Source of the DNA: Limnothrix sp. CACIAM 69d
GTDB taxonomy: Bacteria > Cyanobacteriota > Cyanobacteriia > CACIAM-69d
DNA length: 64,000 bases
Direction of reading: 5' to 3'
NCBI GenBank assembly: GCA_001913845.2
Contig: MKGP02000020.1
Span: forward strand, 1-64,000
The position numbers and the translations under genes were made by a program. The notes below the pieces were generated by a model. The model was not told the DNA's origin and did no database searches. It saw nothing but the letters and a program-made list of their open reading frames with translations. This document shows, piece after piece, positions 18,899-57,499 of the stretch; position 1 is the first letter of the stretch; each line of letters begins with the position of its first letter.

Positions 18899-18910
18899 GG
18901 GGCGCTCCAA

Positions 18911-34684: not shown

Positions 34685-37600
34685 CTAGCGGGCCCCTAGC
34701 TCGCCCCGTTGCCAAGCGGCAAACAGTTGCTCAAAGGCTAGCCCCATCAGTGCTGAATAGCGGCGACTGTCAAAGAAAGCCGGGTTGGCCGCCATGGCCC
34801 GCCGGATACGATCGCTCAAGGATTGTCGCAAGTCACGATTTTTAGCCAACCGCACCGCCAATTGCAAATAGTCCACCTCATCGGCCGCAATCAGCTCCGG
34901 AATGCGCAGCGATTGCAACAGGGCCGAGGCCATCCGCGATCGGAACGCCACCCCTTCCACCACCACGGGCGGCATTCCCACCAGCAACGGATCGATCGTG
35001 GAGTTCACCCCAGCAAAGGGGAACGAATCCAAATAAACATCCCCCAACTTCAGACATTCGCGAATGTCAGCAATGGTGGGCAAAGGATTCAAAATCACCA
35101 GGCGCTGCGGATCCACACCCACGGCGGCCAAGTCCGATCGGAATCGATCGATGAACGGTTGCGCGGGATAATTTTGCCCCCAATTGGGATTGAACGGATA
35201 GAGCACCAACACCGAATCCGCCACCTGTGCCAGCAGTTTCACCCAGACCGATCGCAACTCCGGCACAATTTTGTTGAAATTGGCCCCGGACATATAAACC
35301 GTGGTTTGATCCGTAGCGCCCCAGGAAGCCCGCGAGGGTTGAATCGTCGCCGTTTGGGGCAACACGTCATAGTTAAAGGCATGGGCCGGCCCCTCAAGCG
35401 CCAACAGCTTTTCCGTGTAGCGCGTTTGGGCATCGGTCGCCTCCGTCAGCGATCCGGAAATATAGGCATCCACATGGGTCATCCCCGTGGTGACCGGTGC
35501 TGAGGTGGACATCACCTGCACCCGGGCCAGGCGCTGCACCGCCAACACCGTAATCGGATTGGTCACCATGGTGACGTTCGTGCCAATCAGCAGCAAATCC
35601 AGGTCATCGGCCCGCATCCGGGCCGCCTGTTGGGCCAAGCTCCCTTGCAAATGCACGAACTGATCGGCACGGCTGGCGCAATATTGCTCCAGGGGATGAC
35701 CGGTGGCAAAGACGCTATAGAGAATGATCTCAAAGCGCGATCGATCTAAATATTCAAAGGCCGGCAGGGTGGTGAAGGTTTCCGTTTGGGGCGTGAAGTG
35801 ATCTTTCAAAATCCCCACCCGCAGCTTTTGCCGCTGGGGATCCCTGGGCCCAAACCGATAATCGACCATTTCACCCTGATCCTTCAGGGTTTTCGCAATC
35901 AAGAACGCTCGCTTGCGATAGATATCCGTGGGGCTGTCGGCGGTGAAATACAAAGGCGTAAAAGTGCCGCGATAGGCCAGCCAGCGGGCCAGTTTTTGGG
36001 AAACCTCATCTTCAGGACGCGTTTCGTTGGTGCGATAGACCTGGTTAGTCCAGCGGGTGATGTGTTGGGCAAAGCGATCGGCATCGCCCACCTCTTGAAA
36101 ATAGAGGGGAGCTTCCTGCATGTAGAGGGCATAGGCCTCTAGGAACCATTGGGGCAAGTAGATCGCGCCATATTCCAAGGGCAATTGATAAGCCCGGCAA
36201 TAGGTCATCAGGATGATGAAGTTGCGAAGCTGGCTCAGGGTTTTGATGCCCCCCTTGAGGCTGCTGATCAGGGGTTCAATGAACGATCGCTCGTCCGCGG
36301 TCCAGGGTTCGTAGCGCAAGTCCGTTTCCACCAGGGCCTTGCTCGCTTGACCCAATCGGGCCAGGTAGGCCTCATCGAGGCGATCGAACGGAATTCGCAA
36401 CCATTGTTCCGCCAATTGGCGACGGGCATTCCGCAATCGTTCGATCACCTTGGGATCGGTGGAATGCTGACGATAGGCGGCCACGGCCTGTTTCACCTCA
36501 TTCACCAAGGGCACAAACAGCACCACCATGGAAGCCAGAGGGGTAATCTCCCGCACTAAGGCTTGGGTCTCCTCGGTTGTGGCAGTGGTGGTAGTTGTGG
36601 CTAAGGGGGCGATCGGGGCCGGATCCGCCGGAGCGGGCGAGTCCGGGGCCTCGGGATCCATTTGCAACAGACAGTTAATGACGGCCGATCGGGTTTCGAT
36701 CGAATCCTCACAACGGAGCGCTTCCCGCAGTTGGGCGATCGCCGTTTCCCAATCGGCCCGCTTCAGGCTGTCTTGGGCCACCCCGATCGCGTATTGGGCA
36801 TAGTACTGGAGGGCACGGCGAGCCAAGCGATCGCGCCGATCGGCGGGGAGATAGGCTCGGGCCAGGTCAATGGCGCGGCGGGTGTCGGCAATGTTGGCCC
36901 CGGTGCGGGTGAGCTTGGAGGTGGTGGAGCCGTCATGCCGCCGAAACACCGCTAAGGGTTCTGGCTCAAACCACAGACCCCAGCGACTGGCTAGGCGCTG
37001 CCACATTTCCCAATCGGCCGCCGAGGCCGCCGCCGGGTCAAAGCCTCCCAATTCCTCATAGGCCGCACGACGCACCACGATCGCGGAAAATTGCACCCGT
37101 TGGCACTGGGCAATCCGATCGACCCAATCACTCACCGGCCCGGCCGTTTCCCGTTCCAGCTCAGAAGTCCAAATAATCCGCCCTTGCTGATCGATGTGGT
37201 GATGCCGACAGAGCACCATCCCCACCCGATCGCCCGCCTGCTCGATCGCCCGGGTCATCCGCTCCACAAATCCCGGCAGCAACCCATCATCCTGGTGCAA
37301 CAGCAACACCCACTGGCCAGATGATCGACTCAAACAATCCTGCCAATTGCCCAGCAGTCCTCGATTGTTCGGCTGACGGGTATATAGCACCCGATCGCTC
37401 GCCACCCGCTGCACGATCGCCCGCACATCCACCCGATCGGACGCATCATCCAACACCTCGATCTGCATTCGATCGGCCGGCAACGCCTGATCCAACACGC
37501 TTTGCAGCGCCAAGGCCAATTGCTGCGGATCGGGGTTATAAACCGGCAGCATCACCGACCACAGGGGCCGCTCCGTTCCCGCCGGGACTGGAGCCAGGCG

Positions 37601-40369
37601 CGGCCGCTCGGATTTCAGCAGCCGATCCATATGTTTGGTCATTGCCTGAGCAATTTGTTGCGATCGGGAATGGAGCTGATCAAACCAGGGAGCCGCCACC
37701 AGCTTGTGATAAAACCGGCGAGCATCGGTTTCCAGCTCTTTTTCCGCCGAATTTAGCTGGGTCACCTGCTGGGCATGGATCCGCCGACTGGACAGGGGGC
37801 GAGAAATAAAGCCCACCTTGTACTTGGCCAACAGTCGCAACCAAAGATCCAAATCCACCAGTTGCTTCAGGGCCGGATCAAAACCACCCACGGCCAACAG
37901 GGCATCGGTACGCACCAAAACCGCGCTTGGTTCGCCAATTTTGTTAATTTGCCCCACCTTTTCCACGGGATCCACCGGATCCTGAAACAGCTTTTTCAGC
38001 TTGTCCAGCTTGGTTGGATCCGTGGGAGCCAGCAGCAGGCGCGGATCTCGCAATAGCTCCACCCCCGGTTGTACCGCCTGCAAGTGCGACCAACCATGGT
38101 GCAAATTTTCACTGCCGGCCGCCAACCGCTGGGAAGCGGGATCCTGGGCCGCCGATGGATCCAGCAACAAACGCCGGGGAGCAAACACCAGGGCAATCTC
38201 CGGATCGCTTTCCGCCAGGGCCACCATGGCCTTCAGACAGTCGCGATCGAGCAAATCATCCTGGTGCAAAAACTTCAGATATTTGCCCCGTGCAAACTCC
38301 GCACAGTGGTTCCAGTTGGCCACCATGCCCGCTCGCGGCCCCGCCACCAGTTGGATCCGCTGGGGATCCTGGGCCGCTGCGGCTTGCAGTTGCTCGATCG
38401 TCCCATCGGTGGAACCATCGTCACTGACAAACACTTCCAGGTGGGGATAGCTCTGCTGGAGCGCACTGGCCAGGGCTTCATCGATGTAGCGCCGTCCGTT
38501 ATAGGTGGGAATGGCGATCGTGACGAGGGGCTGTTGGCTATGGATGGTTTGGGCCTGCAACCGTTCGTAGTCCCGGCGAAATCCTGGGCGATCGAGCAGA
38601 CCGGCCAGGGCGGGACTGTAGCAAAGGTCATAGCGCAACTGGAGATCCCACTTGGTTTCCAGAACCCGCAATGCTTCCTGGCGCTGGGTTTCCGGATCCG
38701 TGAGCTGATGTTGCCAAGCGAGGGGATGGTGCTGGCGCAGGCGCGATTCGGGCACAAAGATATGGCGATAACCGGCCGATCGCAACTTCAAACAGAAATC
38801 CAAATCCGCCGCAAAAATGCCCAACCGTGGATCCACACCGCCCACCCGCGCCCAGGTCGATCGGCGGCAACACATCCCCGTCCAGCGCAAGGCCGAAACA
38901 TTATTGGCCAGGTCTATGTGGGCTAAGTTGGCGTAGTTAGACACCTTGGTGTCCAAACCCTGATAAAGACAAAGCCCCTCGGGATTGAGGCCCAACGTCA
39001 GGCCCGCCTGTTCAATTTGTTGCTCTGGATCCAACACCATGGGGCCAGCCACGCCAATGCGCGATCGCTGAACCTGTTCCACCAGACGGGTTAACCAAGC
39101 GGTTCCCATCGGCTCCATGCCATCTTCCCAAAACACCAGATAATCGCCCCGGGCCTGTTGCGCTGCGTGATTGGCAGCAGCAGCCCAGTTGAAATCCTCA
39201 CAGGGTAAAACCCGCAGTCGATCGGTGCCTAACTGGGTTTGCCACCGTTGCAGCACCTGCAAGAGGCCCGGCTCCGGTTGGGTGGTTCCCAACACCGCCA
39301 GCAACTCATAGGGGCCATAGTCCGTGTGGCGAACAATTCCGTTCAGGCAGCGATCGAGATCGGCGGGGCCGTTGCCCACAAAGATCAAAATGGAAACCAA
39401 TTTGCGCTCAGCAATTTGGTAGCGCATTCGGTAGTGGCCTGGCCGTTTGACGATGGTTTCCACTTGCCCCGGTTCCCCGCGCCGCTCGATCGCCTCCCGC
39501 AAAGCCTTTTGCGCCGCCTCGTAGGCATAGGGCTTAGCTTCGGTGGATCCCGCTGCCGACCCGGAGTGAATCCGCCAGTGATAGAGCACTCGGGGAACGT
39601 GATAGACCCGATCGGTCTGCTCCGTAAATCGCAGGGCCAAGTCATAGTCTTGGCTGCCCTCAAACCCCGCCCGAAACCCACTCACCTGGGTCAGGATCGA
39701 TCGCCGGTAAACGGTCAAGTGGCAGATATACATCCGCGTCAAAAACGAGTCGGGACACCAGGCCGGCTTACAGGTGGGTTCCGACAAAATTCCCTTTTCG
39801 TCGATTTTGTCCTCGTCGGTGTAGATCATGTCCGCATCGGGATGCAATTGCAGCAGCGAGGCCACTTCAAACAGGGCATCCGGCGTAAGCAAATCGTCAT
39901 GATCCAGCAAGGCCACATATTCACCCGTCGCGATCTCTAGAGCGGAGTTGGAGGCGCGGGAAATATGGCCGTTTTCGGTGCGGAAGGCGACTTTAATTCG
40001 CGAATCGCGCCGTTGATATTGCTCAAGCAGCGGCCGCATGTGGGGGGCGGTGGAACAGTCGTCCGCGATGCACAATTCCCAGTCTGGATAGACCTGAGCC
40101 AGCACTGACTCGATCGCCTCAATCAGCAGTTGCTCCGGTGTGTTGTAGGTGGGCATCACAATGCTGATGGTCGGCCGGTAGCGGAATCCTTGCCGCGCCG
40201 TGGTGGCCATGCGATCGAGGTCGGCGGCGGTGGGCCGGTTCGCGATCGACCATTGGTGGTAGGTGCGCGGCGGGGAATTGTCGGCCATCGGAGTTGCGGA
40301 CTGGTTGAGGGTTTGGGGGGCGATCGAGTCGAGGATAACGGTTTTCTGGAGCGGTTCCAAGTTGGTCAC
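34685..40369 (-). CDS. Giant multi-domain glycosyltransferase: four GT2 modules and a C-terminal GT41 (SPINDLY-like) module
   Basis: An uninterrupted 1,894-residue protein. GT2 module 1 starts near residue 67 (VMPTYNTPE, LLDHDDLL near 160, TDEDKIDEKG near 183). Module 2 near 323 (LVSILIFVGNG) is diverged. Module 3 near 613 (IAIPTYNGRRYIDEAL, VSDDGSTDGT). Module 4 near 935 (VMLPVYNPDPQQL, LLHQDDGLLPGF). Then comes a helical stretch including one copy of the module of about 130 residues shared with two neighbouring genes (about 1288-1415), and from about 1515 to the end a GT41 domain (VGILKDHFTPQT, PLPTIADIRECLKLGDVYLDSFPFAGVNST). GT41 enzymes include O-GlcNAc transferases; GT2 modules are inverting sugar transferases, so the protein may build and attach several residues. 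The start is GTG 40369; ATG 40288 is an alternative. It ends the minus-strand locus. Confidence 0.88.
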   Translation of the reverse strand: MTNLEPLQKTVILDSIAPQTLNQSATPMADNSPPRTYHQWSIANRPTAADLDRMATTARQGFRYRPTISIVMPTYNTPEQLLIEAIESVLAQVYPDWELCIADDCSTAPHMRPLLEQYQRRDSRIKVAFRTENGHISRASNSALEIATGEYVALLDHDDLLTPDALFEVASLLQLHPDADMIYTDEDKIDEKGILSEPTCKPAWCPDSFLTRMYICHLTVYRRSILTQVSGFRAGFEGSQDYDLALRFTEQTDRVYHVPRVLYHWRIHSGSAAGSTEAKPYAYEAAQKALREAIERRGEPGQVETIVKRPGHYRMRYQIAERKLVSILIFVGNGPADLDRCLNGIVRHTDYGPYELLAVLGTTQPEPGLLQVLQRWQTQLGTDRLRVLPCEDFNWAAAANHAAQQARGDYLVFWEDGMEPMGTAWLTRLVEQVQRSRIGVAGPMVLDPEQQIEQAGLTLGLNPEGLCLYQGLDTKVSNYANLAHIDLANNVSALRWTGMCCRRSTWARVGGVDPRLGIFAADLDFCLKLRSAGYRHIFVPESRLRQHHPLAWQHQLTDPETQRQEALRVLETKWDLQLRYDLCYSPALAGLLDRPGFRRDYERLQAQTIHSQQPLVTIAIPTYNGRRYIDEALASALQQSYPHLEVFVSDDGSTDGTIEQLQAAAAQDPQRIQLVAGPRAGMVANWNHCAEFARGKYLKFLHQDDLLDRDCLKAMVALAESDPEIALVFAPRRLLLDPSAAQDPASQRLAAGSENLHHGWSHLQAVQPGVELLRDPRLLLAPTDPTKLDKLKKLFQDPVDPVEKVGQINKIGEPSAVLVRTDALLAVGGFDPALKQLVDLDLWLRLLAKYKVGFISRPLSSRRIHAQQVTQLNSAEKELETDARRFYHKLVAAPWFDQLHSRSQQIAQAMTKHMDRLLKSERPRLAPVPAGTERPLWSVMLPVYNPDPQQLALALQSVLDQALPADRMQIEVLDDASDRVDVRAIVQRVASDRVLYTRQPNNRGLLGNWQDCLSRSSGQWVLLLHQDDGLLPGFVERMTRAIEQAGDRVGMVLCRHHHIDQQGRIIWTSELERETAGPVSDWVDRIAQCQRVQFSAIVVRRAAYEELGGFDPAAASAADWEMWQRLASRWGLWFEPEPLAVFRRHDGSTTSKLTRTGANIADTRRAIDLARAYLPADRRDRLARRALQYYAQYAIGVAQDSLKRADWETAIAQLREALRCEDSIETRSAVINCLLQMDPEAPDSPAPADPAPIAPLATTTTTATTEETQALVREITPLASMVVLFVPLVNEVKQAVAAYRQHSTDPKVIERLRNARRQLAEQWLRIPFDRLDEAYLARLGQASKALVETDLRYEPWTADERSFIEPLISSLKGGIKTLSQLRNFIILMTYCRAYQLPLEYGAIYLPQWFLEAYALYMQEAPLYFQEVGDADRFAQHITRWTNQVYRTNETRPEDEVSQKLARWLAYRGTFTPLYFTADSPTDIYRKRAFLIAKTLKDQGEMVDYRFGPRDPQRQKLRVGILKDHFTPQTETFTTLPAFEYLDRSRFEIILYSVFATGHPLEQYCASRADQFVHLQGSLAQQAARMRADDLDLLLIGTNVTMVTNPITVLAVQRLARVQVMSTSAPVTTGMTHVDAYISGSLTEATDAQTRYTEKLLALEGPAHAFNYDVLPQTATIQPSRASWGATDQTTVYMSGANFNKIVPELRSVWVKLLAQVADSVLVLYPFNPNWGQNYPAQPFIDRFRSDLAAVGVDPQRLVILNPLPTIADIRECLKLGDVYLDSFPFAGVNSTIDPLLVGMPPVVVEGVAFRSRMASALLQSLRIPELIAADEVDYLQLAVRLAKNRDLRQSLSDRIRRAMAANPAFFDSRRYSALMGLAFEQLFAAWQRGELGAR

Positions 40370-40440
40370 GGTTGATCGTGCGGATCAGCGCAGATCGGTA
40401 CAAGGATCAGTACTAATCAGCGTTGACCAGCTTTGATCGC

Positions 40441-42189
40441 TCAGGTCAATGCGCCCAAACGATCGAGCAGTTGCACCAAGTCCGCCACCTCTACCCAAAT
40501 ATCTTCATGATTGGCAACGGCCCGGGATTGTTCGATCGACAAACCCAGCCCCTCCGGGTCTGCCCCCAGCAAATAGCCGTAATGCAGGTGCATGTAATGG
40601 CTAATCACCCAAAACAAACCCGGGACGGATTTGGGCGAAAATAACTCAATCACGCAAGTTTCGGGCGCACAGAACACCAGGTTAACCAACCCAGCACCGT
40701 GGGGCGCAACAATCACCTTAGCCCGCTGAAACAGCGCGATTTGCTCGGCCAAGGACAGGCGACTCAGGATAACGGTTTGAAACCCGAGGGGTTCTAGGAT
40801 CGCCAACAGGGCTTCTTCATTGGCCACGCGGCGATAGTTGGCATCTTGGCGGCTGATGTAGAGTCGATCGCCCCCCAAATCCGGGGCCGCTCCCTCACTC
40901 AGCCCGGCGAATTGATCGCGCAAAAATTGACAGCCCCAACGGGGTGGTTTCCAGTTGCCGTAGCGACAGGCGATCGAGGGAACCACCAGGCGATCGGCCG
41001 TGAGGTGGGGTTGCCAGGCACTTTCGATCGTTTTGTCAGCGGGAATGCCCAGCCAATCCAGGGTTTCCCGCTGGAAGGGAGCCAGCGATCGGCTAAACAC
41101 CACAAACCAGTCAATTTCCGTCAGCCCCTTGGCACTGCGCCGCAACAGCTCAAATCGCGGCAGGAAATCAATCATCCAATGAAAATAATTGGTTCCCCCC
41201 GCGATCGGCAAAAACGCCACGGTTCCCGGCAGGGATTCACAAGGGGGCAAGGTTTGAGAGGCCGCCACCAGGGCCGCGCTGTGGCCCGACAGATCATCCA
41301 ACAGTCGCCCATCGGGGCCCATCACCACCGTATTAGACCAGTCACTCCAGGCCCGACCACCGGTCACCCAGGCCAGGTAGGGATTGAGGTCATCGGCTCG
41401 ATCGTCGTGCCAGATGGGGTGGTCGTTGGGGCCAATCGTTGGGGGGGGTGGCAGAATCAGTCCCTTGGCCTGGGTTTCGAGGGTGATTAATTCCAGGCAC
41501 ACCGCCGGATGGGCAGCGGCAATGATTTCGCAAAAGGGCCTGTGAGGTGAAAAATCGCGCACCACCGTGGCGGGGATGGCGCGATTAAAACAATCTGTGG
41601 CTTCCCGAGGGCGATCGATCGCCTGCAAGAGATGACCCAACAATCCGTAAAACGGCCACAGGCGAGGGTCTGCCTGCAACAGGGTCAGGGTGTGGGTGAG
41701 GATCGATCGCGCACGATCCAGGGCCAACCAGCGATCGGCTAGCTCGCGGATCACCGTTTCATCCATAGCCAAGGGATGGCTCAGGTACAGGGCCTTCAAC
41801 CGCTCGATTACCCAGCCATCTTGTTCCAGCCCGATCGCCGATCGGATCCAAGCCAAGTGCAAATCTGGACGGTGGGGCGCAAGGTCGATCGCCCGATCAT
41901 AGGCAGCGATTGCCGCTTCCCCCTGATGCAGATCGCCGTAGAGCTTTGCCAGCCGCGCCCACAGATCGCCATCATTCGGGTCAAGGGCGATCGCCCGCTC
42001 CCAAGCCGCGATCGCTGCCATCGGTTGTTCCCGAGCCACCAGCACCAACCCCAGCGCCCGGTAACCGTCCGGCCGCTCCGGTTCTTCCGCAATCCACCGC
42101 CGACAGGCCGCGATCGCCGTCGTCCAATCTCCCCGTTCAAAGGCCGCTTGCGCCTGCTGTTCAATTTCGCCTAGGGTCTGTTGACTCAC
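40441..42189 (-). CDS. TPR-GT61 (DUF563) glycosyltransferase, first copy
   Basis: A 582-residue protein. Residues 1-140 hold three or four tetratricopeptide repeats (RGDWTTAIAACRRWIAEEPERPDGYRALGLV, then WERAIALDPNDGDLWARLAKLYGD). Residues about 280-540 are a GT61/DUF563 domain with GGTNYFHWMIDFLPR near 325, LYISRQDANYRRVANEEAL near 452 and VAPHGAGLVNLVFC near 500. GT61 members transfer xylose, GlcNAc or arabinose in eukaryotes; bacterial acceptors are mostly unknown. GTG 42189 has a clear ribosome binding site (GGGAG, 6 bases). It lies 28 bases after the methyltransferase gene, so it is in the same transcript. A paralogue is at 57500-59392. Confidence 0.87.
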   Translation of the reverse strand: MSQQTLGEIEQQAQAAFERGDWTTAIAACRRWIAEEPERPDGYRALGLVLVAREQPMAAIAAWERAIALDPNDGDLWARLAKLYGDLHQGEAAIAAYDRAIDLAPHRPDLHLAWIRSAIGLEQDGWVIERLKALYLSHPLAMDETVIRELADRWLALDRARSILTHTLTLLQADPRLWPFYGLLGHLLQAIDRPREATDCFNRAIPATVVRDFSPHRPFCEIIAAAHPAVCLELITLETQAKGLILPPPPTIGPNDHPIWHDDRADDLNPYLAWVTGGRAWSDWSNTVVMGPDGRLLDDLSGHSAALVAASQTLPPCESLPGTVAFLPIAGGTNYFHWMIDFLPRFELLRRSAKGLTEIDWFVVFSRSLAPFQRETLDWLGIPADKTIESAWQPHLTADRLVVPSIACRYGNWKPPRWGCQFLRDQFAGLSEGAAPDLGGDRLYISRQDANYRRVANEEALLAILEPLGFQTVILSRLSLAEQIALFQRAKVIVAPHGAGLVNLVFCAPETCVIELFSPKSVPGLFWVISHYMHLHYGYLLGADPEGLGLSIEQSRAVANHEDIWVEVADLVQLLDRLGALT

Positions 42190-42217
42190 GCCCGCTCCCC
42201 AATTTCGAGGTAGATCC

Positions 42218-43372
42218 TCAACGCCGCTGCCATGCTTCCAAAGCGGCGGTTACCACCGGAGCCAGCCAGTCAGGTAACTGAGGATAGATTCGCTCCCACA
42301 CTGAGCGATCGACCGCTGGAATTGGATAGGCGATGGCCACCAATGCCGTCCGGATGGCCGATTCGGGTTCCGGCAGACCACTGCAATATTCCACAAAATC
42401 TTGTAAAAATTCCCAATCCGAAGGCAGAATTGGCCGCTGGGAAAAATGACTAGCAATCAGCCGCTGATAGAGTTGGCCTTTCCGGGTATGCCAGGCCGTT
42501 TCCAACTCCGCTGCTGGAGTCTCGTACCACTGCTGGGAATATTGAGCACGGGCATTACTGAGTTCTGCCAAAGCTCCCCGATGTTCGGGCGATCGATCGT
42601 AGAGATCCAAGCAGCTATCCACCCAGTTCAACCAAAACTCATCCCATTCTGGCAATCCCGGTTCTCCCAATTTGCGCGGCGGGAATGAAGGGGCGATCGC
42701 CCCGGCAGCCGTCCGTTTGCGGAGGAACCCATTCAGACACCAGGTCACATTCCGCTCATAGAAGTCGCAGAAGTGGGTGTCAATGTCGTATTCATCCCCA
42801 CAAACTATCAGGAATTCTTCCAGGGCTTGCAACGGTTTCCCGGCACTAAGGCTGTCTTCCACAATCACATAATCGCCCCGATCGAGCCAGCCATGGAAAA
42901 ACTCCAACACCGCAATGGTCGTTCCGTAGGAGTGATCCGCATCCTCAATCACCAACCAAGGACGCGGTAGGCTGGCCAACCAGTCCGGCGAAAGGGTTTG
43001 CCCCAAGTCTCGGCCATCCCCTGCCAAAAAGGTCACCCTTGGATGGCTCACATCGGTCACCGGGTTGATATCGATCGAGTAGATATGCCCATCAATTCCA
43101 AAATTATTCAGGTGATCTCCCAACCAGAGGGCACTTCCCCCGGCAAAGGAACCAATTTCAAAAATAGTGCGCGGCTTCAGTTCCCAGAGCAGCAGAGAAT
43201 AGAGCGCCCAGTCAAAGGGATTTTTGATTGTCTGAATGCCCCGATAGCTGTAGTTGCGAGCGGCCATCTCGATCGCCACAGCGTCGCTACCGGTCAGAAA
43301 GGACGTTTGGATGGGGCGCACTGAATCCCAGGGGCGATCGCGCCAGTGACAAAACCGGCTCGCAGCATTCAT
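42218..43372 (-). CDS. CmcI-like SAM-dependent methyltransferase with a C-terminal shared helical module
   Basis: A 384-residue protein. Residues about 40-235 belong to the CmcI/cephalosporin hydroxylase-like methyltransferase family, which also contains rhamnosyl O-methyltransferases: TIFEIGSFAGGSALWLGDHL near 69, YSIDINPVTD near 97, LVIEDADHSYGTT near 140, and DYVIVEDSL near 167. The residues after about 250 are an all-helical module (LAELSNARAQYSQQWYETP, then YQRLIASHFSQRPILPSDWE, ending LPDWLAPVVTAALE) that aligns with modules in the adjacent GT4 and giant GT proteins. Function is probably methylation of a sugar in the locus product. ATG 43372 is the only sensible start. There is a 122-base gap to the preceding GT4 gene. 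Confidence 0.83.
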   Translation of the reverse strand: MNAASRFCHWRDRPWDSVRPIQTSFLTGSDAVAIEMAARNYSYRGIQTIKNPFDWALYSLLLWELKPRTIFEIGSFAGGSALWLGDHLNNFGIDGHIYSIDINPVTDVSHPRVTFLAGDGRDLGQTLSPDWLASLPRPWLVIEDADHSYGTTIAVLEFFHGWLDRGDYVIVEDSLSAGKPLQALEEFLIVCGDEYDIDTHFCDFYERNVTWCLNGFLRKRTAAGAIAPSFPPRKLGEPGLPEWDEFWLNWVDSCLDLYDRSPEHRGALAELSNARAQYSQQWYETPAAELETAWHTRKGQLYQRLIASHFSQRPILPSDWEFLQDFVEYCSGLPEPESAIRTALVAIAYPIPAVDRSVWERIYPQLPDWLAPVVTAALEAWQRR

Positions 43373-43494
43373 TAGTCCAGAACTTGGGTCTGAGGCTGAC
43401 GGTGTAGCAAGCTCTGCCCGATCGCTGGCCCCCGATTCGGAGCCAGCGACCTCCGTTGACTCAGGTAATTGAGAGCTACTAACCTCAGTGTTCC

Positions 43495-46167
43495 CTAGGA
43501 AGTCATTTTTTTTTGAGCCTCTGACTCAAACACCGCCGCATACAGCGGGAACAGCCAACCGGGCAAACGGGTTGCCGCGTCCTTCACCTGCATTTGTCCC
43601 GGCGCGTAGTACATCATTGCGCCCAAGAACGCATTCAAACCACCGGGCTGATCGAAGCCGCGTGCCGCCGTCTCCGCCAGCTTCACCAACAGTTCCCGCT
43701 CCCCATCCGTCAACGGCTCCCGTTGGAATCCTGATTTCAGATACATGCCATAACGGCGGCCCAGTTCACTATTGAACACAGCCTCCAATTGAGGCGTGGG
43801 AACCGTCAACCAAAACTCCGCCACCCGTTGACGCAATTGGCGCAATTCCGCCACCGTTTCCCCATCTTCCGGGTCAATTTCGTAGAGATTGGAGCAACCC
43901 AAGAAGCGGTTAAGAAACACCATGTCCTCGGCCAAATTGGGAGGCTGGCTCACGGAGGGTGGAGCAGCAGCAGCCGGGGCGGCCATGGAGACGGTTGGTT
44001 GCGGTGACGGTGCTACGGGAGCAGATGTCGCTTGGCCCGCTTCAAAGATTCGCTGATAGTCCGGTAGCAACCAAGCCGGTAAGCGATTGGCTGCATCCCG
44101 TACCTGCATTTTGCCCGGCGGCAGATACATCATGATGGCCAACAGCGCATTCAGCCCCGGGTAGCGATCGATTCCCTGACTGATTAGTCCCGTCAACTCC
44201 TGAACAACGGACTCCTCTTCCGGGCGCAAAGGATAGTTTTGATAGCCACTGTCAAGCAGGGCCAAGTAGCGGCGACCAAATTCACTCTTGTAGAGAGATT
44301 CCAGTTGCTCAAGGGGCGTTTGGGCCCAAATTTGCCCCACCTGTTGACGAATTAGTCGCAACTCTTCCGCGATCGAGGTTTCTTCGGGGTCGATGTAGTA
44401 GAGATTGGCACAACCTAACAACCGATTCAGGAAGGTCATGTCCTGATGAAGTGGCACGGTTGCAGAGGTTGGCGGGGCAGTTGGTGCCAGGGTTGCAACT
44501 GACTGGGGTGGGGCGATCGGCTGTGGAGCATGGGCAGCTCCCGAAGACCCGTGAGGCTCAAAGACCGATCGATAATCCGACAGCAGCCAAGCCGGAAGCT
44601 TTGCTGGGGCCTGGTCAACCTTCATCTTGCCAGCGGGGAGATACAGCATCACTCCCAAAAATGCCTGCAATCCAACCGGATGCTGGACGGTATGCTGACT
44701 CACTTGATTAGTGAGAAATTGGAGGTAATTGGCTTCTTCATCCGTGAGGGGTTGGGATTGGAAGCCGCTGTGCAGCAAGGCGCGATAGGCCTGGCCCACG
44801 GAGCCTTGATACAGGGCTGGGAGTTGTTCCGCTGGAGCAGCCTTCCAAAACTCAGCAGATTGGCGGCGCAGCTCCCGTAGGAGGTTAATCGTGCTTTGAT
44901 CGTTGGGGTCGAGGCCATAGACCCGTACAACGTTCGTGAGGCGATCGCACAGCCACTGGGTGTAGGGATCGGTGGCAGGGGAGGTGGGAATAGAAAGGGC
45001 CATAGGGCTGCTGAGTTCGGCTTTTCGGCGCAATAGCTCCTCGAATTTTAGTTCGAGTTGGTCAATCGATCGCTCAATGTCAAATTTGGCAAAGGCTGCT
45101 GCTTGTCCCGTGGCGGCCAAGCGTGCCCAACGTTCCGGATCCTGCGGCAAACTGATCAGAGCTTGGGCCAGGGAGATCGCATCACCGGCCGGGAATAACA
45201 AACCGCTCACGCCGGATTCAATCACCTCCGCAGCCCCGCCCACGCCTGTGCTTAAGACCGTTAGCCCAGCCGCCATCGCTTCAACCTGCACAATTCCAAA
45301 GGCTTCCGGCTGAATCGAAGGGAACACAAAGACATTGTGCTGAGCAAAACAGTCGGCCAGTTGCGATCGATCCAAATGACCAACCAATCGCACTCGATGG
45401 GCTAACCCTGTTTGTTGCAGGTACTGTTGCAGGGCCGCTAGATAATCCGCGTGGATAGCGTTACCCGCGATCGTGCATTCAAAGTCCACTTGCTGCTGTT
45501 GAAGCACCGTCAGGGCCTCTAGCAGGGTGTGGGGCCCCTTGGTTTGAATCACCAACCCGGCATACAAAATTCGCAGCTTGTCCCGCTGGGGCAACGTGGG
45601 CCGGCTGAATTGCCGCACCAGAGCGCCGGGATAAATCGTTGATGTTTCCAGTTGCGTCAACCCTGAATCTCGCACCGCCTGAGCCACGGCCTCGCTAGCG
45701 GTGGCCAAGTGATAGAGCGAGTGCTGGGGAGCAAGGGTTGGTGGATAGGGAACCTGGGCAAACCCCAGGTGATGAATTGTTGGAATTTGTTGTTCCAGCA
45801 AAGGCCCAAAGACCGCCGGGCCGAGGAACGAGATATTACCAACCAGGCAAAGATCGGGCTGAACTTGTGTCAAAACCTCGCGCAGGATGCGATCGTTATG
45901 GGCCAAGATTGCGTTGATCTGGTTAGGATCTTGCAATTCTTGGGTTTGACCTTCATAAGTTCCCCACAGTTGCAAGCGGCGATCAATGCCATCCTCTTGA
46001 TTTAGCGTGCAACCCAGGTAAGGCGCATCGCTGGTTAAAACCTGTATTTGGTGACCACGAGCTTGCAACCCAGCAGCAAAATCCGCGAGCGATCGACCAT
46101 ACCCCCCCAGCTCCTGCGGCGGATAGAGATTGGTAAGGATCAGAATTTTCTTAAAGCATCGTACCAT
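43495..46167 (-). CDS. GT4 glycosyltransferase with three C-terminal helical modules
   Basis: An 890-residue protein. Residues 1-385 are a retaining GT-B enzyme: NLYPPQELGGYGRSLADFAAGL near 13, ILYAGLVIQTKGPHTLLEAL near 200, and the donor-site FPSIQPEAFGIVQVEAMAAGL with E-x7-E near 283-303. The rest is three tandem copies of a module of about 130 residues, at about 402-535, 577-708 and 749-881, separated by Pro/Ala/Ser/Thr-rich linkers. Each copy reads roughly LRxxRQxxxxxWxxxPxxQLxxLYxxxxGxxY, then SGFQxxPLTxxE, then LNAxLGxMMYxPxGKMxVxDAxxRLPxWLLxDYxxxFE. ATG 46167 is chosen over TTG 46173. It is the first HIP1-containing gene downstream of the AT-rich block. Its substrate is unknown. Confidence 0.86.
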   Translation of the reverse strand: MVRCFKKILILTNLYPPQELGGYGRSLADFAAGLQARGHQIQVLTSDAPYLGCTLNQEDGIDRRLQLWGTYEGQTQELQDPNQINAILAHNDRILREVLTQVQPDLCLVGNISFLGPAVFGPLLEQQIPTIHHLGFAQVPYPPTLAPQHSLYHLATASEAVAQAVRDSGLTQLETSTIYPGALVRQFSRPTLPQRDKLRILYAGLVIQTKGPHTLLEALTVLQQQQVDFECTIAGNAIHADYLAALQQYLQQTGLAHRVRLVGHLDRSQLADCFAQHNVFVFPSIQPEAFGIVQVEAMAAGLTVLSTGVGGAAEVIESGVSGLLFPAGDAISLAQALISLPQDPERWARLAATGQAAAFAKFDIERSIDQLELKFEELLRRKAELSSPMALSIPTSPATDPYTQWLCDRLTNVVRVYGLDPNDQSTINLLRELRRQSAEFWKAAPAEQLPALYQGSVGQAYRALLHSGFQSQPLTDEEANYLQFLTNQVSQHTVQHPVGLQAFLGVMLYLPAGKMKVDQAPAKLPAWLLSDYRSVFEPHGSSGAAHAPQPIAPPQSVATLAPTAPPTSATVPLHQDMTFLNRLLGCANLYYIDPEETSIAEELRLIRQQVGQIWAQTPLEQLESLYKSEFGRRYLALLDSGYQNYPLRPEEESVVQELTGLISQGIDRYPGLNALLAIMMYLPPGKMQVRDAANRLPAWLLPDYQRIFEAGQATSAPVAPSPQPTVSMAAPAAAAPPSVSQPPNLAEDMVFLNRFLGCSNLYEIDPEDGETVAELRQLRQRVAEFWLTVPTPQLEAVFNSELGRRYGMYLKSGFQREPLTDGERELLVKLAETAARGFDQPGGLNAFLGAMMYYAPGQMQVKDAATRLPGWLFPLYAAVFESEAQKKMTS

Positions 46168-46233
46168 TGTCAAGATTTCATATTTGTGAAGACCCTGCTA
46201 GTCCCGTGAATAGCCATAGCAGAGATACCCTCA

Positions 46234-49200
46234 TTAGAACTGCACAAAATCCATCACTGGACAAAAAGGTGATAGAGGGCGACCACTAAAGACAACCGCT
46301 AGCAAATCTGCTAGCCGATGGTGATAAGTATGATGGCGATAGAGGGTTTCAATCGCCTTCCTCATATAGGGATAGCGGCGCTCAGGGTATTGTACAAAAT
46401 ATTCAATTGCTTCTAGGTATTCGCTTGGATTTTCTGCCATTACCACTTCATCAGGACCGAAGAAATCACGAATCCGCCGGACTCGATCGCTCACGACAAA
46501 ACCACCACAAGCGGGAGCGTTGAACACTCGCTCGTTGCAAGTAAACCCCTCAACTTCAAAAGCATGGTGTAAGTTTAAGGCAATGGCAGAAGAAGAATAA
46601 AGATAGGGAGCTTTTCGATTAAACTCTTCAGCAGTCAAGAAACTATTCTTAGCATTTTTGAAAGAAGACTGAGTCCAATCAGGTCCTATTAAGAGGTGGT
46701 TATACTTTTTCAGTGGCTCTAGCCAAAAGTCTTGAAAACGCGATGCTTTTTCAGAAAAAGTACCAATAAAGAACAGGTCCCGTTCTAATTCAACAGGAGC
46801 AGAAACATGGGAATAGATATTAACCCCCCAAGGAAAGCTCATTACCGGAATACCATACTCGGTCACGTAACGCGAGAAGAAGTAATGATTTCCCTCAAGG
46901 GACAATTCTGATATCGCTAGAGCAATAAATTTAGAATACTTTTCTAGACTATCTAGTGCTTTTAAGGTCATGCCAGGCACTTTAGTAGGTTGCAAGTTCA
47001 CATCATTAAAATATCGTGCAAAGACAATGATCTTATTTTTTGGCTCGTAAATTAGATGTTCAATTTTTTCCAGGCTTTCTGCGTGAGCAACAATGATAAC
47101 CAATTCACTATATTGTTCTAGTATTTCGTGAAAGCCTGCTTCTCTCCCTTCTTCTAGGAACAAGAAAGGGATATTCCAAGAATTTGCCACTTCAGCAAGC
47201 CCAATTAATCTCACATTTGCTGCATAGGGTAAAGGGCCATAGTAACAAATAGCATGAGGCTTATTTTTCCACTCGCTATAGTTCGAGATTTGTTTCAGAG
47301 AAAAACCAATTGCATCAACTCCAGCAATGTCGAACCGATTTTCAGCTATCGCTGTCAGAGTTAACTGCGATACTTTTGTATCAGAATCTAGTAAAGAGTG
47401 AAACAGAGGAGTTTCACCAATTTGTGATTGAAGGCCGCGCGCACTCCGCATTCTTATGGAACTACATCTTGTATCATTCAGCTTAGGAGAGTGTCCACAT
47501 GTTGCTATGACCGATAATAGTTCAGAGGTATCAGCTGCTTCTTTTAAGTAAGACAAGTTGGAAATATCAGACGAAGATTTAAACGCAGAAATCATATTTT
47601 CAACGTTTTCTATCAGTGATGAATTGATCGACACAGTTTCACTTAAGGAGATAAGTTTTCTAAAGCAACGATTAGCTTTTCCAAAATCACCGCTGACAAG
47701 ACTTGCTATAGTCAAATTATAAAGTGCCTCCACTCTAGCAGGGTTAACTAATATCGCTTGCTCATAAGCATGAACAGCAATTGATGGAACAGAGAATGTG
47801 GCTTCAGCGAGCATAAGATTGCCAAATTGCAAATATGCGCTGTATTTAGCCGCATTTATATCTGAACACATTTGTATCTCCGGATAGAGATCATTTATAT
47901 TGCTTTTTTGGTAGACGCTTTCAAGAAGTTCAATGGTTTTTGGGATAACTTGATTTTCCGTCGCACCCACAGTAGATGCACCTCTTGAGTGAATACGGTA
48001 CTTAATAAGTGGCTGATCTATATATGAGTAGTTGAGATGTGATGCCGACTTCAACCAGAAGTGATAGTCTGCAACAAAACCACCCTCAAATCCACCCATA
48101 TTTAGTATGGACGAACGGCGTAACATTGTTGTTGGATGTGCAACGATATTACGAGAGAAAAGAGTTCTCAATAAATTCCATTGATTAATGAGCTTGGACT
48201 GCGGATGCCATAAACCAAAGCTAGTTCTCAAAATATTGCCGTTCTCATCTATATGATAGCCATCAGAAAATACAACATCCAGTCTTGAATCAGACTCAAA
48301 CTGCTGCAACTGTACTTCTAGACGATTGGGTAAGCAAACATCATCAGCGCCTATAAAAGCAATCAGATCACCTGCTGCTTCTTGTACAACTTTATTTGCC
48401 AGTCGGCTATAGTCACCTGTTTTTCCGACATTTTCTTGATAGATATATCGAATTCTAGTATCGCTAGTATATTCTTCAATAATTGAGCGGGTTCTATCAG
48501 TTGAACCATCATCCAATATCAGAAGTTCAAAGTTAGTGTATGTTTGTTGTAAAACAGATTCAATGCATTCACCAATATACCGTTCTCCATTGAAAACATA
48601 AGTCACTACTGAAATTTTAACTCTGCGAGTTCGAGACGGTTGGGAAGCATTATTGGGATCTTTTAAGATCGAGCGCAAAGGGATATCTATTGCATCCAAG
48701 TTAATGGATTTATAGTTTTCCCTTTTTTTCATTTCAACAATTTCTGTTAATATTCTAAAGTAACGGTTACTCCATGTATGGTCTCGAATCGTCCTTCGAT
48801 AAGCTGACAATGCTATTTCTTCTCTTTCTGTCTCTTTTAAGAGATAGTGGTTGATTTTCTCAACAAGATCGTAAGAATTTTGATAAAACACAATTTCTTT
48901 TCCTTCAACAAAAAAATCTTTTAGGCGCTCATCATAGTTGGTAAGTTGGAATACTTGGCAAGCAGCATACTCAAAGGTTCGACCCTTAATCTGAGGTTGT
49001 TGGGGGTTTGTTGAGCACCATGCCATACCCAGGCAGATTTTAGAAGAGGAAAAAACACCCAACATATCTTCGTGTGTCAAGTATCCTCCGGCAATATTCA
49101 CAAGGGAGGGAACTTGATCCCACCCATGACCCCACACGTTAACATTGATTCCACTGTCTTTTAGAAAGGAAATTAACTCTAAGCGTCCGGGATAGAGTTG

Positions 49201-49695
49201 TCCGACAAAAGTTACATCGTACTGTTTTTGACTGACCTTGATTGGGAAGTATAAGTTGGGGTTACAACCCCATTGGCTCAAAATCGTCTGCTTGTAACCT
49301 AACTCTTGATACTTTTGCCAAGCTTCACGACATGTGGTGACTGCAAAGTTGTATGAGTCAAGCCATGCCAAAGAGTGACCAAATCTCCAATCATCATCAC
49401 TGAACAGAACTATTGACGTGGTGGTTTTCAGATCTCTAATATAACCAGCCAATGAGCGGTCTAGCTCGCTTTCAACAATGGCATGCAGAAATATATCTGG
49501 CTCTTCATCGTCGATCACTGACTTAAGCTTCTGATTCATTGCTTCATGCCCCAAAAGTCTAAGCTCTGCTGAGAAATTGAAGTCAACCACTTCAAGCCCT
49601 AGGTCTTCTAGAGGGCACTTAATATTGTGGTAACCATAACTCCCAGTTAGCTTATTTGGCTCATCAGAATCAGGAGCAAAGAACAAGATTTTCAT
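46234..49695 (-). CDS. Three-module glycosyltransferase (CgeB-like, GT2, CgeB-like)
   Basis: A 1,153-residue protein. Residues 1-320 match the CgeB/Glyco_trans_1_2 type (FFAPDSDEPNK, VTFVGQLYPGRLELI near 170, IKGRTFEYAACQVFQLTNYDERLKDFF near 232). Residues 356-570 are a GT2 module (ISVVTYVFNGERYI, LDDGSTDRTR near 392, FIGADDVCLPNRLEVQ near 440). A short TPR-like stretch (AYEQAILVNPARVEALYN near 645) leads into a second CgeB-type part (about 790-1140: LDSLEKY, RDLFFIGTFSEKASRF near 970, EGFTCNERVFNAPACGGFVVSDRVRRIRDFF near 1045). Codon use is AT-rich and HIP1-free, unlike downstream genes. ATG 49695 is preceded by no strong ribosome binding site. Donor sugars cannot be predicted. Confidence 0.84.
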   Translation of the reverse strand: MKILFFAPDSDEPNKLTGSYGYHNIKCPLEDLGLEVVDFNFSAELRLLGHEAMNQKLKSVIDDEEPDIFLHAIVESELDRSLAGYIRDLKTTTSIVLFSDDDWRFGHSLAWLDSYNFAVTTCREAWQKYQELGYKQTILSQWGCNPNLYFPIKVSQKQYDVTFVGQLYPGRLELISFLKDSGINVNVWGHGWDQVPSLVNIAGGYLTHEDMLGVFSSSKICLGMAWCSTNPQQPQIKGRTFEYAACQVFQLTNYDERLKDFFVEGKEIVFYQNSYDLVEKINHYLLKETEREEIALSAYRRTIRDHTWSNRYFRILTEIVEMKKRENYKSINLDAIDIPLRSILKDPNNASQPSRTRRVKISVVTYVFNGERYIGECIESVLQQTYTNFELLILDDGSTDRTRSIIEEYTSDTRIRYIYQENVGKTGDYSRLANKVVQEAAGDLIAFIGADDVCLPNRLEVQLQQFESDSRLDVVFSDGYHIDENGNILRTSFGLWHPQSKLINQWNLLRTLFSRNIVAHPTTMLRRSSILNMGGFEGGFVADYHFWLKSASHLNYSYIDQPLIKYRIHSRGASTVGATENQVIPKTIELLESVYQKSNINDLYPEIQMCSDINAAKYSAYLQFGNLMLAEATFSVPSIAVHAYEQAILVNPARVEALYNLTIASLVSGDFGKANRCFRKLISLSETVSINSSLIENVENMISAFKSSSDISNLSYLKEAADTSELLSVIATCGHSPKLNDTRCSSIRMRSARGLQSQIGETPLFHSLLDSDTKVSQLTLTAIAENRFDIAGVDAIGFSLKQISNYSEWKNKPHAICYYGPLPYAANVRLIGLAEVANSWNIPFLFLEEGREAGFHEILEQYSELVIIVAHAESLEKIEHLIYEPKNKIIVFARYFNDVNLQPTKVPGMTLKALDSLEKYSKFIALAISELSLEGNHYFFSRYVTEYGIPVMSFPWGVNIYSHVSAPVELERDLFFIGTFSEKASRFQDFWLEPLKKYNHLLIGPDWTQSSFKNAKNSFLTAEEFNRKAPYLYSSSAIALNLHHAFEVEGFTCNERVFNAPACGGFVVSDRVRRIRDFFGPDEVVMAENPSEYLEAIEYFVQYPERRYPYMRKAIETLYRHHTYHHRLADLLAVVFSGRPLSPFCPVMDFVQF

Positions 49696-49799
49696 GATTT
49701 CAATACCAAATTTCTAGTGACAAAAGTTATCTCAATTTATATTCACAGCTATTTTAATTTTGCCATTACATAAGGCTTGCTTAAAGCGCCACTTCCAAT

Positions 49800-51338
49800 T
49801 TACGGAGTTGAGTCGAAGGCAGCGTACAGGTCACCTCCTAAGAAGTTGTGCCCATAGTTTATGAAGTTAGTTATGGTTTCCATATCAACCCATTCCTGAA
49901 ATCGCATTGTTGGGTAACTGCCAATAGAGACATTGAACTTGTTGTAGCCTAAGGAAGAAAGATGGCGTAGGCATTCTGCAATATTATCAGGAAACTCTTT
50001 CAAAAACTCAAATGATATGTAAGGTATCGGAGAACTCAGACCACGCAAAACGTCTGATTCAAATCCTTCGACATCAATTTTACAAAATTTAGGAATTCCA
50101 TAGGAATTAATTGCTGAGTTTAAAGTCATTGTATCGACTACAACCTGTTGATCCCAAGTAAAGTCATAGAAGCTACCAAATCTTCCTGTTTTCCACTCAT
50201 TTGCAAAAGTTGCAATTTGACTTTCCGAAGAGCATATGTTTAAGGTCAACTTGCCTGGCTCTCTTGCCAGACCTTTATTAACGATGGTCACTTCACTCAT
50301 AAAGCCGTAGCGTTGCATGAGAACTGACACACAGCCAGGGTGTGGCTCAAAGCAGACTACTTTAGCCCCACAAGATAAGTAAGCTTCAGTCTTATATCCT
50401 CGATTTGCACCAACATCAAACACTAGATCTCCTGACTTAATAAATTTTTCCAGAAAATTCTTTTCTGTTTCACGAATTGTGTAACCTTGATAAACAGAGT
50501 TTCCTTTTGGCGCTTTTATTAGATGTGCACAGTATAGGAGATATTCACCAGCTTGAAAAGATGACAAGTTCTGAGCATGAACAGGGTTACCGAGAGAGTC
50601 TAAATAGAGTTCATCAATAGTCAAGTACCCTGGAAAGTGTTGCAGTAGTGAATCAACTGAAAAAATTTGATATCTATCAAAAAGTACTGATGGATTTCCA
50701 AGATAAACACTTATCAAGAGGTGACCTCCCTCTTGCATCACTCGTTCAATTTCTTTGGCTACCTCCCAAGCAGCATTTGCGGAAACCTGTCCATACTGCT
50801 CAATGAGTCCGACTCTGGAGAGCGTATCAATTGCCACCACCCATGATTTGGATGAATCTTGATAAGGTAGGCTGTACACACCACCATAGTGCTCTCTTAA
50901 TCCGAACGGCAGGCGTGCATCAGGTAGGGGACTAAGAGTAACACGGTCAGTCCAAGAGATTTGAGATATAACCGTAGAGAATGCACGGTCTTCGCTTAGA
51001 TCTAAAACTTCTTTAGGCTGCCACTCGGACACAGCGCGTAGACACCAGGCTTGGCGTTTGACTGTTGATGAGGCCAGATTACTATCTTGTATAATCTCGG
51101 ACCCTGAAAGGCAAGGAGGATGAAAGATAATATTTTGTAGCCTAGAGACACTTTCTTTTTTCAGAAGTGATTGACAATAACTGAGGAATTTCTTGCGATA
51201 AGAAGTCCACTCAGGAGATAGTAGGTATGACAAAGGGTATCGGGACTCATACTGACTAAGAGCGTTCAAAATTTCTACAATTTCTAATTTTCGATTACTC
51301 TGTAAATTTGTGTTATTCGCAATATCCATCGTTTTCAC
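49800..51338 (-). CDS. Double methyltransferase: DUF268-like domain plus FkbM domain
   Basis: A 512-residue protein with two SAM-methyltransferase-like halves. The N-terminal half (about 75-250) looks like DUF268: LREHYGGVYSLPYQDSSKSWVVAIDTLSRVGL near 148, EIERVMQEGGHLLISVYLG near 200. Its SAM-binding glycine motif is not evident, so it may be degenerate. The C-terminal half (about 300-490) is a typical FkbM domain: DLVFDVGANRGYKTEAYL near 303, VVCFEPHPG, FCKIDVEGFESDVLRGL near 430, SFEFLKEFPDN. FkbM enzymes O-methylate sugars and polyketides. Start GTG 51338 or ATG 51329. It sits 37 bases downstream of the DegT gene within the operon-like run. Confidence 0.82.
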   Translation of the reverse strand: MKTMDIANNTNLQSNRKLEIVEILNALSQYESRYPLSYLLSPEWTSYRKKFLSYCQSLLKKESVSRLQNIIFHPPCLSGSEIIQDSNLASSTVKRQAWCLRAVSEWQPKEVLDLSEDRAFSTVISQISWTDRVTLSPLPDARLPFGLREHYGGVYSLPYQDSSKSWVVAIDTLSRVGLIEQYGQVSANAAWEVAKEIERVMQEGGHLLISVYLGNPSVLFDRYQIFSVDSLLQHFPGYLTIDELYLDSLGNPVHAQNLSSFQAGEYLLYCAHLIKAPKGNSVYQGYTIRETEKNFLEKFIKSGDLVFDVGANRGYKTEAYLSCGAKVVCFEPHPGCVSVLMQRYGFMSEVTIVNKGLAREPGKLTLNICSSESQIATFANEWKTGRFGSFYDFTWDQQVVVDTMTLNSAINSYGIPKFCKIDVEGFESDVLRGLSSPIPYISFEFLKEFPDNIAECLRHLSSLGYNKFNVSIGSYPTMRFQEWVDMETITNFINYGHNFLGGDLYAAFDSTP

Positions 51339-51375
51339 TTTGTTATGAAGTCATAGTTCAGCAAGTCAACAAGCG

Positions 51376-52620
51376 TTAGGAACTTGTGGCTACCATGCTT
51401 TTGTGACTACTTGCAATGCAGACATCAAATGACTGAATAACTACATCCTGAACTGATTCAGTCATTTGATGATAAAGGGGCAATATAACTTGATGATCTT
51501 GCAAGTATTCGCTGTTCTGTAGTTTTTCACAGCTGCCGGGGTTGCATTTACAGCCTGCGTAAAATCCTTCACAACGCCATTCATAACGCTCATCAAGACC
51601 TAATGCTTTTTCTCGGTGTGCACACATGACACCCCTTCGAGTAGCAATATTTTGGTCTCGCAACATTTGCATAACGGTTCTTTGCAATTTACTGCTAGAA
51701 AGCGTGACGGGATAGCTTTGCCAGTTGCTACGTGCCCAAGCAGGCTGATGAGGGAGACGAATATCATTGATATGGATAAGCTGTTTTGAATATCGGTCTG
51801 CCAGGTGTCGGCGCTTCTCCAGCATAACTGGCAATTTTTTAAGCTGCTCTCTTCCAATAGCTGCTTGGATATCGGTCATCCTATAGTTGTAACCCATAAC
51901 GGGATAGGACTCAAAAACGACTTCTGTGCTGTGATGACGCACAGTGTCTGGGATGCTCATTCCGTGTTGTCTCCACAGTCTGAATTGCTTATCCCATTCA
52001 GAATTATTGGTGGTGATCATACCACCATCCCCAGTAGTTACCACTTTTCGCGGATGGAATGAGAAGCAAGCAATATCTCCATGTGGTTTACCAATTTTAT
52101 CCCATTCGCCATCCCACAAAATTTCGCTTCCAATAGCACATGCAGCATCTTCGATCACTGGCAGTCCGTAGGACTTTGCCAGAGGTATAATTGCCTGTAG
52201 ATCGCATGGCATACCAACTTGATGGACACATAGAATTGCGCGAGTCTTTGAGTTTATGACAGATTCAATTTTATCAACGTCTATGTTATGTGTGATTGAA
52301 CAGACATCTACAAAAACGGGTATTGCGGCACAGTAACGAATACTGTTTGCTGTTGCGATATATGACTGGCTAACAGTTATTACTTCATCACCTTGCTTTA
52401 CGCCAACTGCAAGAAGCGCTAAGTGCAGTGCTGTTGTGCAGCTAGAAACTGCACAAGCATAGTTTGCACCAACATAAGCTGCAAATTCGTTCTCGAATTT
52501 ATTTACTTCAGATCCCTGAGTGACCCATCCTGAGAGAATTACACGCTGAGCGGCAAGCGCTTCTGATTCATCAAGCCAGGGTTTGGCTACAGGGATAAAA
52601 GAACTATCATTAGAGATCAT
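51376..52620 (-). CDS. DegT/DnrJ/EryC1/StrS-family PLP aminotransferase, copy A
   Basis: A 414-residue enzyme that transaminates a keto-sugar nucleotide. Visible marks are PVAKPWLDESEALAAQRVI at the N terminus, NKFENEFAAYVGANYACAVSSCTTALHLAL near 45, VIEDAACAIGSE near 164, the PLP lysine in CFSFHPRKVVTTGDGGMI near 190, and YRMTDIQAAIGREQL near 255. The C terminus is unusual: a Cys-rich stretch near 350 (RCEGFYAGCKCNPGSCEKL) is inserted where relatives have a short loop; a metal or disulfide function is possible. It is 28 bases after the epimerase gene. The product is probably an amino sugar for the locus glycan. Confidence 0.88.
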   Translation of the reverse strand: MISNDSSFIPVAKPWLDESEALAAQRVILSGWVTQGSEVNKFENEFAAYVGANYACAVSSCTTALHLALLAVGVKQGDEVITVSQSYIATANSIRYCAAIPVFVDVCSITHNIDVDKIESVINSKTRAILCVHQVGMPCDLQAIIPLAKSYGLPVIEDAACAIGSEILWDGEWDKIGKPHGDIACFSFHPRKVVTTGDGGMITTNNSEWDKQFRLWRQHGMSIPDTVRHHSTEVVFESYPVMGYNYRMTDIQAAIGREQLKKLPVMLEKRRHLADRYSKQLIHINDIRLPHQPAWARSNWQSYPVTLSSSKLQRTVMQMLRDQNIATRRGVMCAHREKALGLDERYEWRCEGFYAGCKCNPGSCEKLQNSEYLQDHQVILPLYHQMTESVQDVVIQSFDVCIASSHKSMVATSS

Positions 52621-52648
52621 AGATAACTTCTGCGATAAGAACAGATTA

Positions 52649-53659: not shown

Positions 53660-53688
53660 AGACTTTTATCAGACTTGTTGTTTCCAAC

Positions 53689-55474: not shown

Positions 55475-55503
55475 AAGCTCTGACACTTTTATAAAAATCC
55501 TTT

Positions 55504-56541: not shown

Positions 56542-56549
56542 CTTTAAAT

Positions 56550-57029: not shown

Positions 57030-57499
57030 GATGAAAGACCTTTAGACACTAGATAGTAGTTCTAAAATATTAGCAGAATTTCGCATGAAAGTGTTAAGAA
57101 CTAAACGAGCAAGAGCTAAATTGTGGATTGAGCCTATAGCGAAGCAAGACGGGATAGATCTTGGATACAAAAATTGTACGGCGCGCGGAAATAGGCTGTC
57201 CAAAATTGCACTGTCAGATATTTTGTCGTTAGGCAACCCCTGTGAAGTGACGATTCTGTAGCGCAAGACCGTTTACCTAGAAGCGCATACAGCCCTTACC
57301 TCGCTTACTAAGCACAGTAGCCTGTTAAGATGGACATTGCCCACTGAATCATTGCTTCATGGCATCTGTGATATGGTGTGCCAATTGTTTTAGGTAAAGG
57401 CTGTGTTGCCACTAAAAAAACGGTAAGCAGCACTATTCCTCATTGTATTAATTTCACGGTATTAATTTCACGTGAGACAAGAAGCCTGTATGACTAGGT
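57030..57499. other. 470-base gap upstream of the sugar-nucleotide cassette
   Basis: AT-rich and without HIP1. A 13-base direct repeat GTATTAATTTCAC occurs at 57445-57457 and 57459-57471. A minus-strand frame of 74 codons at 57042-57266 has no recognisable content. The promoter for the 57029 gene should be here. The gap could also be the scar of an older insertion, but no terminal repeats are visible. Confidence 0.4.

Follow-up and report, generated by a model that had tools for sequence, protein, structure and literature searches.

A shared helical module on the enzymes of a glycosyltransferase locus in Limnothrix sp. CACIAM 69d, and its association with GT41 in cyanobacteria

Why should three neighbouring genes, whose catalytic domains have different folds, carry copies of one and the same module? 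The locus that raises this question lies in a stretch of 64,000 nucleotides of Limnothrix sp. CACIAM 69d (contig MKGP02000020.1, positions 1 to 64,000), referred to here as the window. Its relevant features are the following.

46234..49695, minus strand: protein with Glyco_trans_1_2 and GT2 domains, without module, upstream on the same strand
43495..46173, minus strand: GT4 glycosyltransferase with three C-terminal modules (Pfam Glycos_transf_1, 2.8e-32)
44563..44946, minus strand: free-type module copy 1, residues 410-537 of the GT4 protein (HMM 144 bits)
44047..44427, minus strand: free-type module copy 2, residues 583-709 of the GT4 protein (HMM 148 bits)
43531..43911, minus strand: free-type module copy 3, residues 755-881 of the GT4 protein (HMM 149 bits; AlphaFold pLDDT 95.1, pTM 0.88)
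42218..43372, minus strand: RMNT_CmcI-like methyltransferase with one C-terminal module (PF04989, 9.5e-15)
42245..42628, minus strand: module copy of the methyltransferase, residues 249-376 (HMM 91 bits)
40441..42189, minus strand: TPR-GT61 protein between the module genes, itself without module (PF04577, 3.3e-29)
34685..40369, minus strand: giant protein of 1894 aa with several GT2 domains, one module, a linker of ~75 aa and GT41
36122..36502, minus strand: GT41-preceding (N41) module copy of the giant protein, residues 1290-1416 (HMM 123 bits)
34685..35899, minus strand: SPINDLY/OGT-like GT41 catalytic domain (PF13844, 3e-27; family profile against SPINDLY 7y4i, 2.6e-40)
17300-18910: RTX protein, 12 HemolysinCabind stretches; same contig as the module genes

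The GT4 gene more plausibly starts at ATG 46167, as given in the preliminary description, than at the alternative TTG 46173. A sharp step in G+C content was seen at its upstream side, from 55-60% in 34685-46173 to 40-45% in 46234-59410. The latter region contains two DegT aminotransferases, a GDP-mannose dehydratase-like enzyme, a GFO/MocA oxidoreductase, two hexapeptide acyltransferases, an FkbM methyltransferase and two glycosyltransferase genes, and is probably an acquired amino-sugar pathway island.

The preliminary description had proposed five copies of one domain in the three genes, and both HMM and BLASTP searches confirmed it, with HMM boundaries within about 10 residues of the limits given there. 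Identity is 41-50% among the three copies of the GT4 protein; it falls to 22-28% when the methyltransferase or giant protein copy is compared with these, or the two with one another. BLASTP between copies, run in a very small database, gave E values from 1e-7 to 1e-14. For independent confirmation, an HMM built from the three GT4 copies only was searched against the 240 ORFs of the window together with reversed decoys. It recovered the giant protein copy at an i-E of 4.4e-16 and the methyltransferase copy at 4.5e-14, and besides the GT4, giant and methyltransferase copies no other window ORF and no reversed decoy; all five copies are therefore homologous. The genome holds a sixth copy on a different contig (C29:84651-85019), in a protein of 640 aa that comprises only the module and GT41.

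The module is a compact helical domain in a confident AlphaFold model from 63 aligned members, with predicted helices at positions 11-26, 31-50, 53-60, 63-74, 83-97, 105-113 and 135-151. Searched with these 63 members, Pfam-A, NCBIfam and PHROGs gave no match above curated cut-offs and only scattered matches at chance level, so that neither a docking domain nor another known family could be assigned. The profile had nothing below E 0.09 in the PDB, the model had no Foldseek match in the PDB below E 1 and nothing below E 0.4 in a viral fold library, and none of the virus contigs matched the profile. A TPR identity was rejected, as the 63 members gave no TPR profile match above cut-off (single chance-level hits) and the fold no significant match. 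The all-alpha domain (AAD) of NGT was rejected as well: the family profile meets NGT (3q3e/8p0o) in the catalytic half only, and the module reached no structure at E<1 in the fold comparison, with NGT missing from the 50 of 75 matches listed. The literature searches found no paper describing the module domain or a cyanobacterial GT41/RTX operon. None of the five copies thus belongs to a different known family, and one unnamed module is indeed common to enzymes of different folds: an all-helical family of ~130 residues, undescribed within Pfam, NCBIfam, PHROGs and the PDB. An uncurated family covering it may exist outside these four libraries. As a domain family missed by current libraries, the module deserves a name.

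An iterated HMM search over the fetched loci converged on 223 copies in 103 ORFs, counts that include three duplicated contigs (L086=L068, L095=L058 and L106=L072). Modules were present in 40 of 386 sampled genomes, belonging to 22 of 142 genera across the phylum, a lower bound because ten candidates per genome were scored. The holders named by a contig scan with the family profile include Okeania, Trichodesmium, Laspinema, Oscillatoria, Phormidium and Baaleninema; Synechococcus WH7803 (L113) and Prochlorococcus single-cell genomes are further ones. The family is cyanobacterial. Two-module genes of picocyanobacterial type were also seen in contigs labelled Deltaproteobacteria (L130) and Crocinitomicaceae (L131), and their copies were placed inside a cyanobacterial clade of the tree, for which reason they are treated as misbinning or transfer and not as spread to other phyla.

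The core partner of the module is the SPINDLY/OGT-like GT41 catalytic domain, on which the family is centred. GT41 is part of the same protein in 61 of the 103 module ORFs and is encoded elsewhere in the fetched locus for 26 more; for the other 16 it was not found in the fetched flank, several of these loci being short. The preliminary description had asked whether relatives elsewhere are also fused to glycan enzymes, and the module does occur almost only on such enzymes. The C-terminal part of the giant protein scored 95.5 bits with PF13844 against a cut-off of 25. For the core motifs expected of GT41, a lysine in K-x2-P and a D-x-P-[YF]-x-G loop, 17 module-GT41 (MOD-GT41) proteins were compared: all have K420 and a D-x-YLDS-x-P stretch without variation, and both align to SPINDLY. 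Judged from its sequence, this part would be a GT41 protein glycosyltransferase with predicted transfer to Ser/Thr or Asn.

The minimal architecture is MOD-GT41 alone, as in L066 (640 aa) and L085 (642 aa). Longer forms carry GT2, GT4 or methyltransferase domains upstream of GT41, reaching 3498 aa, and in MOD-GT41-MOD(1-4) one to four modules lie downstream of GT41. Modules are also found behind GT4, behind GT2 or as stand-alone proteins, and behind a CmcI-like methyltransferase only in the genus of the window and in L087. Two variants were observed besides these: a protein of 865 aa with three modules (L068:9929-12523), whose N-terminal ~330 aa have no Pfam match and read like another type of sugar transferase, and a rearranged GT4-MOD3 locus of a sister genome (L067:282-5465), where a GT2-GT4-MOD gene is followed by a gene that holds the GT4 tail and three modules. 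Among module-GT41 pairs taken at distances of 41-119 residues, the end of the module lies 77-83 residues ahead of the GT41 seed in 60 of 60, and the predicted structure fills this linker with helices.

The copies fall into two subfamilies. In a tree of 117 copies the GT41-preceding copies stood apart from the free ones: all 35 of them were in one supported group together with a few others, the giant protein copy among its members, and the context labels were strongly clustered (17 changes, whereas shuffled labels averaged 64). The methyltransferase copy of the window grouped with that of L087 with support of 100/100. Free copies carry a polar helix-1 signature, N-L-Y-x-I-D-P (N22 0.90, Y24 0.92, D27 0.86, P28 0.88), which is absent from the GT41-preceding copies; R41, G65, P131, W133 and Y138 are kept in both. 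The GT41-attached copy is thus a separate, structurally integrated subfamily, and the free subfamily comprises copies behind GT41, copies at the end of GT4, GT2 and methyltransferase enzymes, and stand-alone proteins. The polar and aromatic residues conserved in the free copies, together with the appended and tandem arrangement of the module and its near restriction to glycan enzymes, recall CBMs and would suit a module that holds the growing glycan. However, neither fold nor sequence matched a solved lectin or CBM of the PDB, the GT41-preceding subfamily has no polar signature and the module occurs with a protein glycosyltransferase type, and we judge such glycan binding unlikely.

The stand-alone proteins of picocyanobacteria (~290-370 aa) comprise two modules. 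The usual gene order is the two-module gene, a GT4 gene, a gene for an RTX calcium-binding repeat protein and a TPR-GT41 gene; another GT41 gene runs in the opposite direction. In 16 loci the GT4 start overlaps the stop of the two-module gene or lies within 25 nt of it, and the slot of this gene in the operon is conserved from Prochlorococcus to freshwater Synechococcus. One small-genome strain has the two-module gene split into two ORFs, next to an RTX and GT41 cluster (L051:9122-9996). The GT4 domain of the window shares 35-43% identity, over nearly the full domain, with the GT4 encoded near the two-module gene. In the tree, copies 1 and 2 of the stand-alone proteins fall together with the copies borne by GT4 proteins. 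One pair of functions is thus joined in a single protein in one lineage and encoded by distinct neighbouring genes in another.

These loci bear on two further explanations. The near-constant spacing to GT41 suggests structural integration there, and it would fit a purely structural GT41 domain whose duplicates were simply taken along into other enzymes and have no common binding function there. Against this, the stand-alone proteins conserved in a fixed slot and the residues specific to the free type imply a function apart from GT41, which makes a solely structural part very improbable. Alternatively, modules could pair mutually or with a site on GT41, complexing the GT4 enzyme, the methyltransferase and the giant protein and leaving the acceptor untouched. 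The presence of up to five modules per protein, of several module-bearing enzymes per cluster and of genes with four modules in all that follow, as separate genes, a MOD-GT41 gene (L102 and L103) is in keeping with such pairing. The picocyanobacterial GT4 and TPR-GT41 partners have no module, however, so that module-module pairing alone cannot recruit them there; docking between enzymes is possible, if rather doubtful.

A module gene, a module-free GT41 gene and an RTX gene occur together in 20 of 90 loci, of both the fused and the stand-alone kinds, including Laspinema and Oscillatoria loci with MOD-GT41-MOD or GT2-MOD; an RTX gene was not found in the fetched flanks of the fused Okeania and Trichodesmium loci. 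The genome of the window is itself rich in RTX proteins. Since their base rate is not negligible, more weight goes to the constant slot in picocyanobacteria, and the RTX protein of those operons is a likely and the most economical candidate acceptor. In the window, the RTX protein nearest to the module genes, at 17300-18910, is a possible acceptor, but it lies ~16 kb from the giant gene. The RTX protein of the two-module locus was not identified in the exoproteome papers on Synechococcus WH7803, and work on the phosphonoglycoprotein of Prochlorococcus invokes a PglC/Wzx/PglL lipid-carrier route instead (PMC8931226).

Docking to a shared scaffold or acceptor, proposed in the preliminary description, stands as the natural reading of an unnamed module, although the GT41 centre and the GT41-attached subfamily had been overlooked there. 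The TPRs of OGT recognise acceptors. The AAD of NGT helps to recognise the acceptor peptide, in whose motif it touches the Thr (PMC10507012). As the N-terminal helical parts of protein-modifying GT41 enzymes recognise acceptors and the module holds that position, free copies could engage the same acceptor. The copy before GT41 would be an integral N-terminal domain, standing where OGT/SPINDLY has its TPRs and NGT its AAD. Free copies would have that same protein acceptor as their ligand, or else the glycoprotein as it grows, so that the GT4 and GT2 enzymes of elongation and the O-methyltransferase would be kept on one acceptor, for which a type I-secreted RTX calcium-binding surface protein is the likely candidate. 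The stand-alone copies of picocyanobacteria would act in trans as an adaptor. The analysis demonstrates the homology of the copies, a confident fold, the link to GT41 with its near-constant spacing, the two subfamilies, the adjacency of the genes and the pair that is fused here and separate there; acceptor binding, the RTX protein as acceptor, the order of the reactions and the sugars used are what we infer from it. That the module serves recruitment in a cytoplasmic system of glycoprotein assembly centred on GT41 seems to us evenly balanced between right and wrong; against it, the gene adjacency could reflect a polysaccharide or LPS pathway. The wider reading is more tentative and falls somewhat short of that balance: a mobile acceptor-docking domain would build a modular cytoplasmic assembly line, as giant proteins in filamentous forms or as adaptor and enzymes in Prochlorococcus and Synechococcus, making the glycans of RTX surface proteins.

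The module joins otherwise unconnected transferase genes into one pathway and points to a predicted protein glycosylation operon in some Prochlorococcus and Synechococcus, a prediction that is testable given the conserved operon and the culturable Synechococcus WH7803. The surface glycoproteins of these organisms matter for grazing, for contact with phages and for dissolved organic matter.

Among known systems, SPINDLY and the bacterial and human OGT share with the MOD-GT41 proteins the catalytic GT-B half (profile positions ~226-609, E 2.6e-40 to 1e-23; Foldseek E 1e-24). The family profile meets the structures of SPINDLY, OGT and, weakly, NGT only from ~226, past the module and linker. The N-terminal part is TPR in SPINDLY/OGT and module plus helical linker in MOD-GT41, which, unlike the former, is usually fused to GT2, GT4 or methyltransferase domains. 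The HMW1C-like NGT is likewise soluble, a GT41 whose helical N-terminal domain is not TPR, but the sequence match is confined to catalytic positions 492-581 and its AAD matched the module neither by sequence nor among the fold matches listed. The picocyanobacterial TPR-GT41 shares the operon of the two-module gene and likely its pathway; it differs in having no module and an N-terminal part that reads as TPR-like (weak TPR_14 match, L046). In pairs of the GtfA-GtfB type a non-catalytic partner stands beside the transferase and handles a secreted adhesin in the cytosol, a general likeness from which the module differs by its smaller size, its helical nature and its mobility between enzymes. That secreted proteins are modified by soluble GT41 enzymes is already known; what the libraries searched do not describe is the module family.
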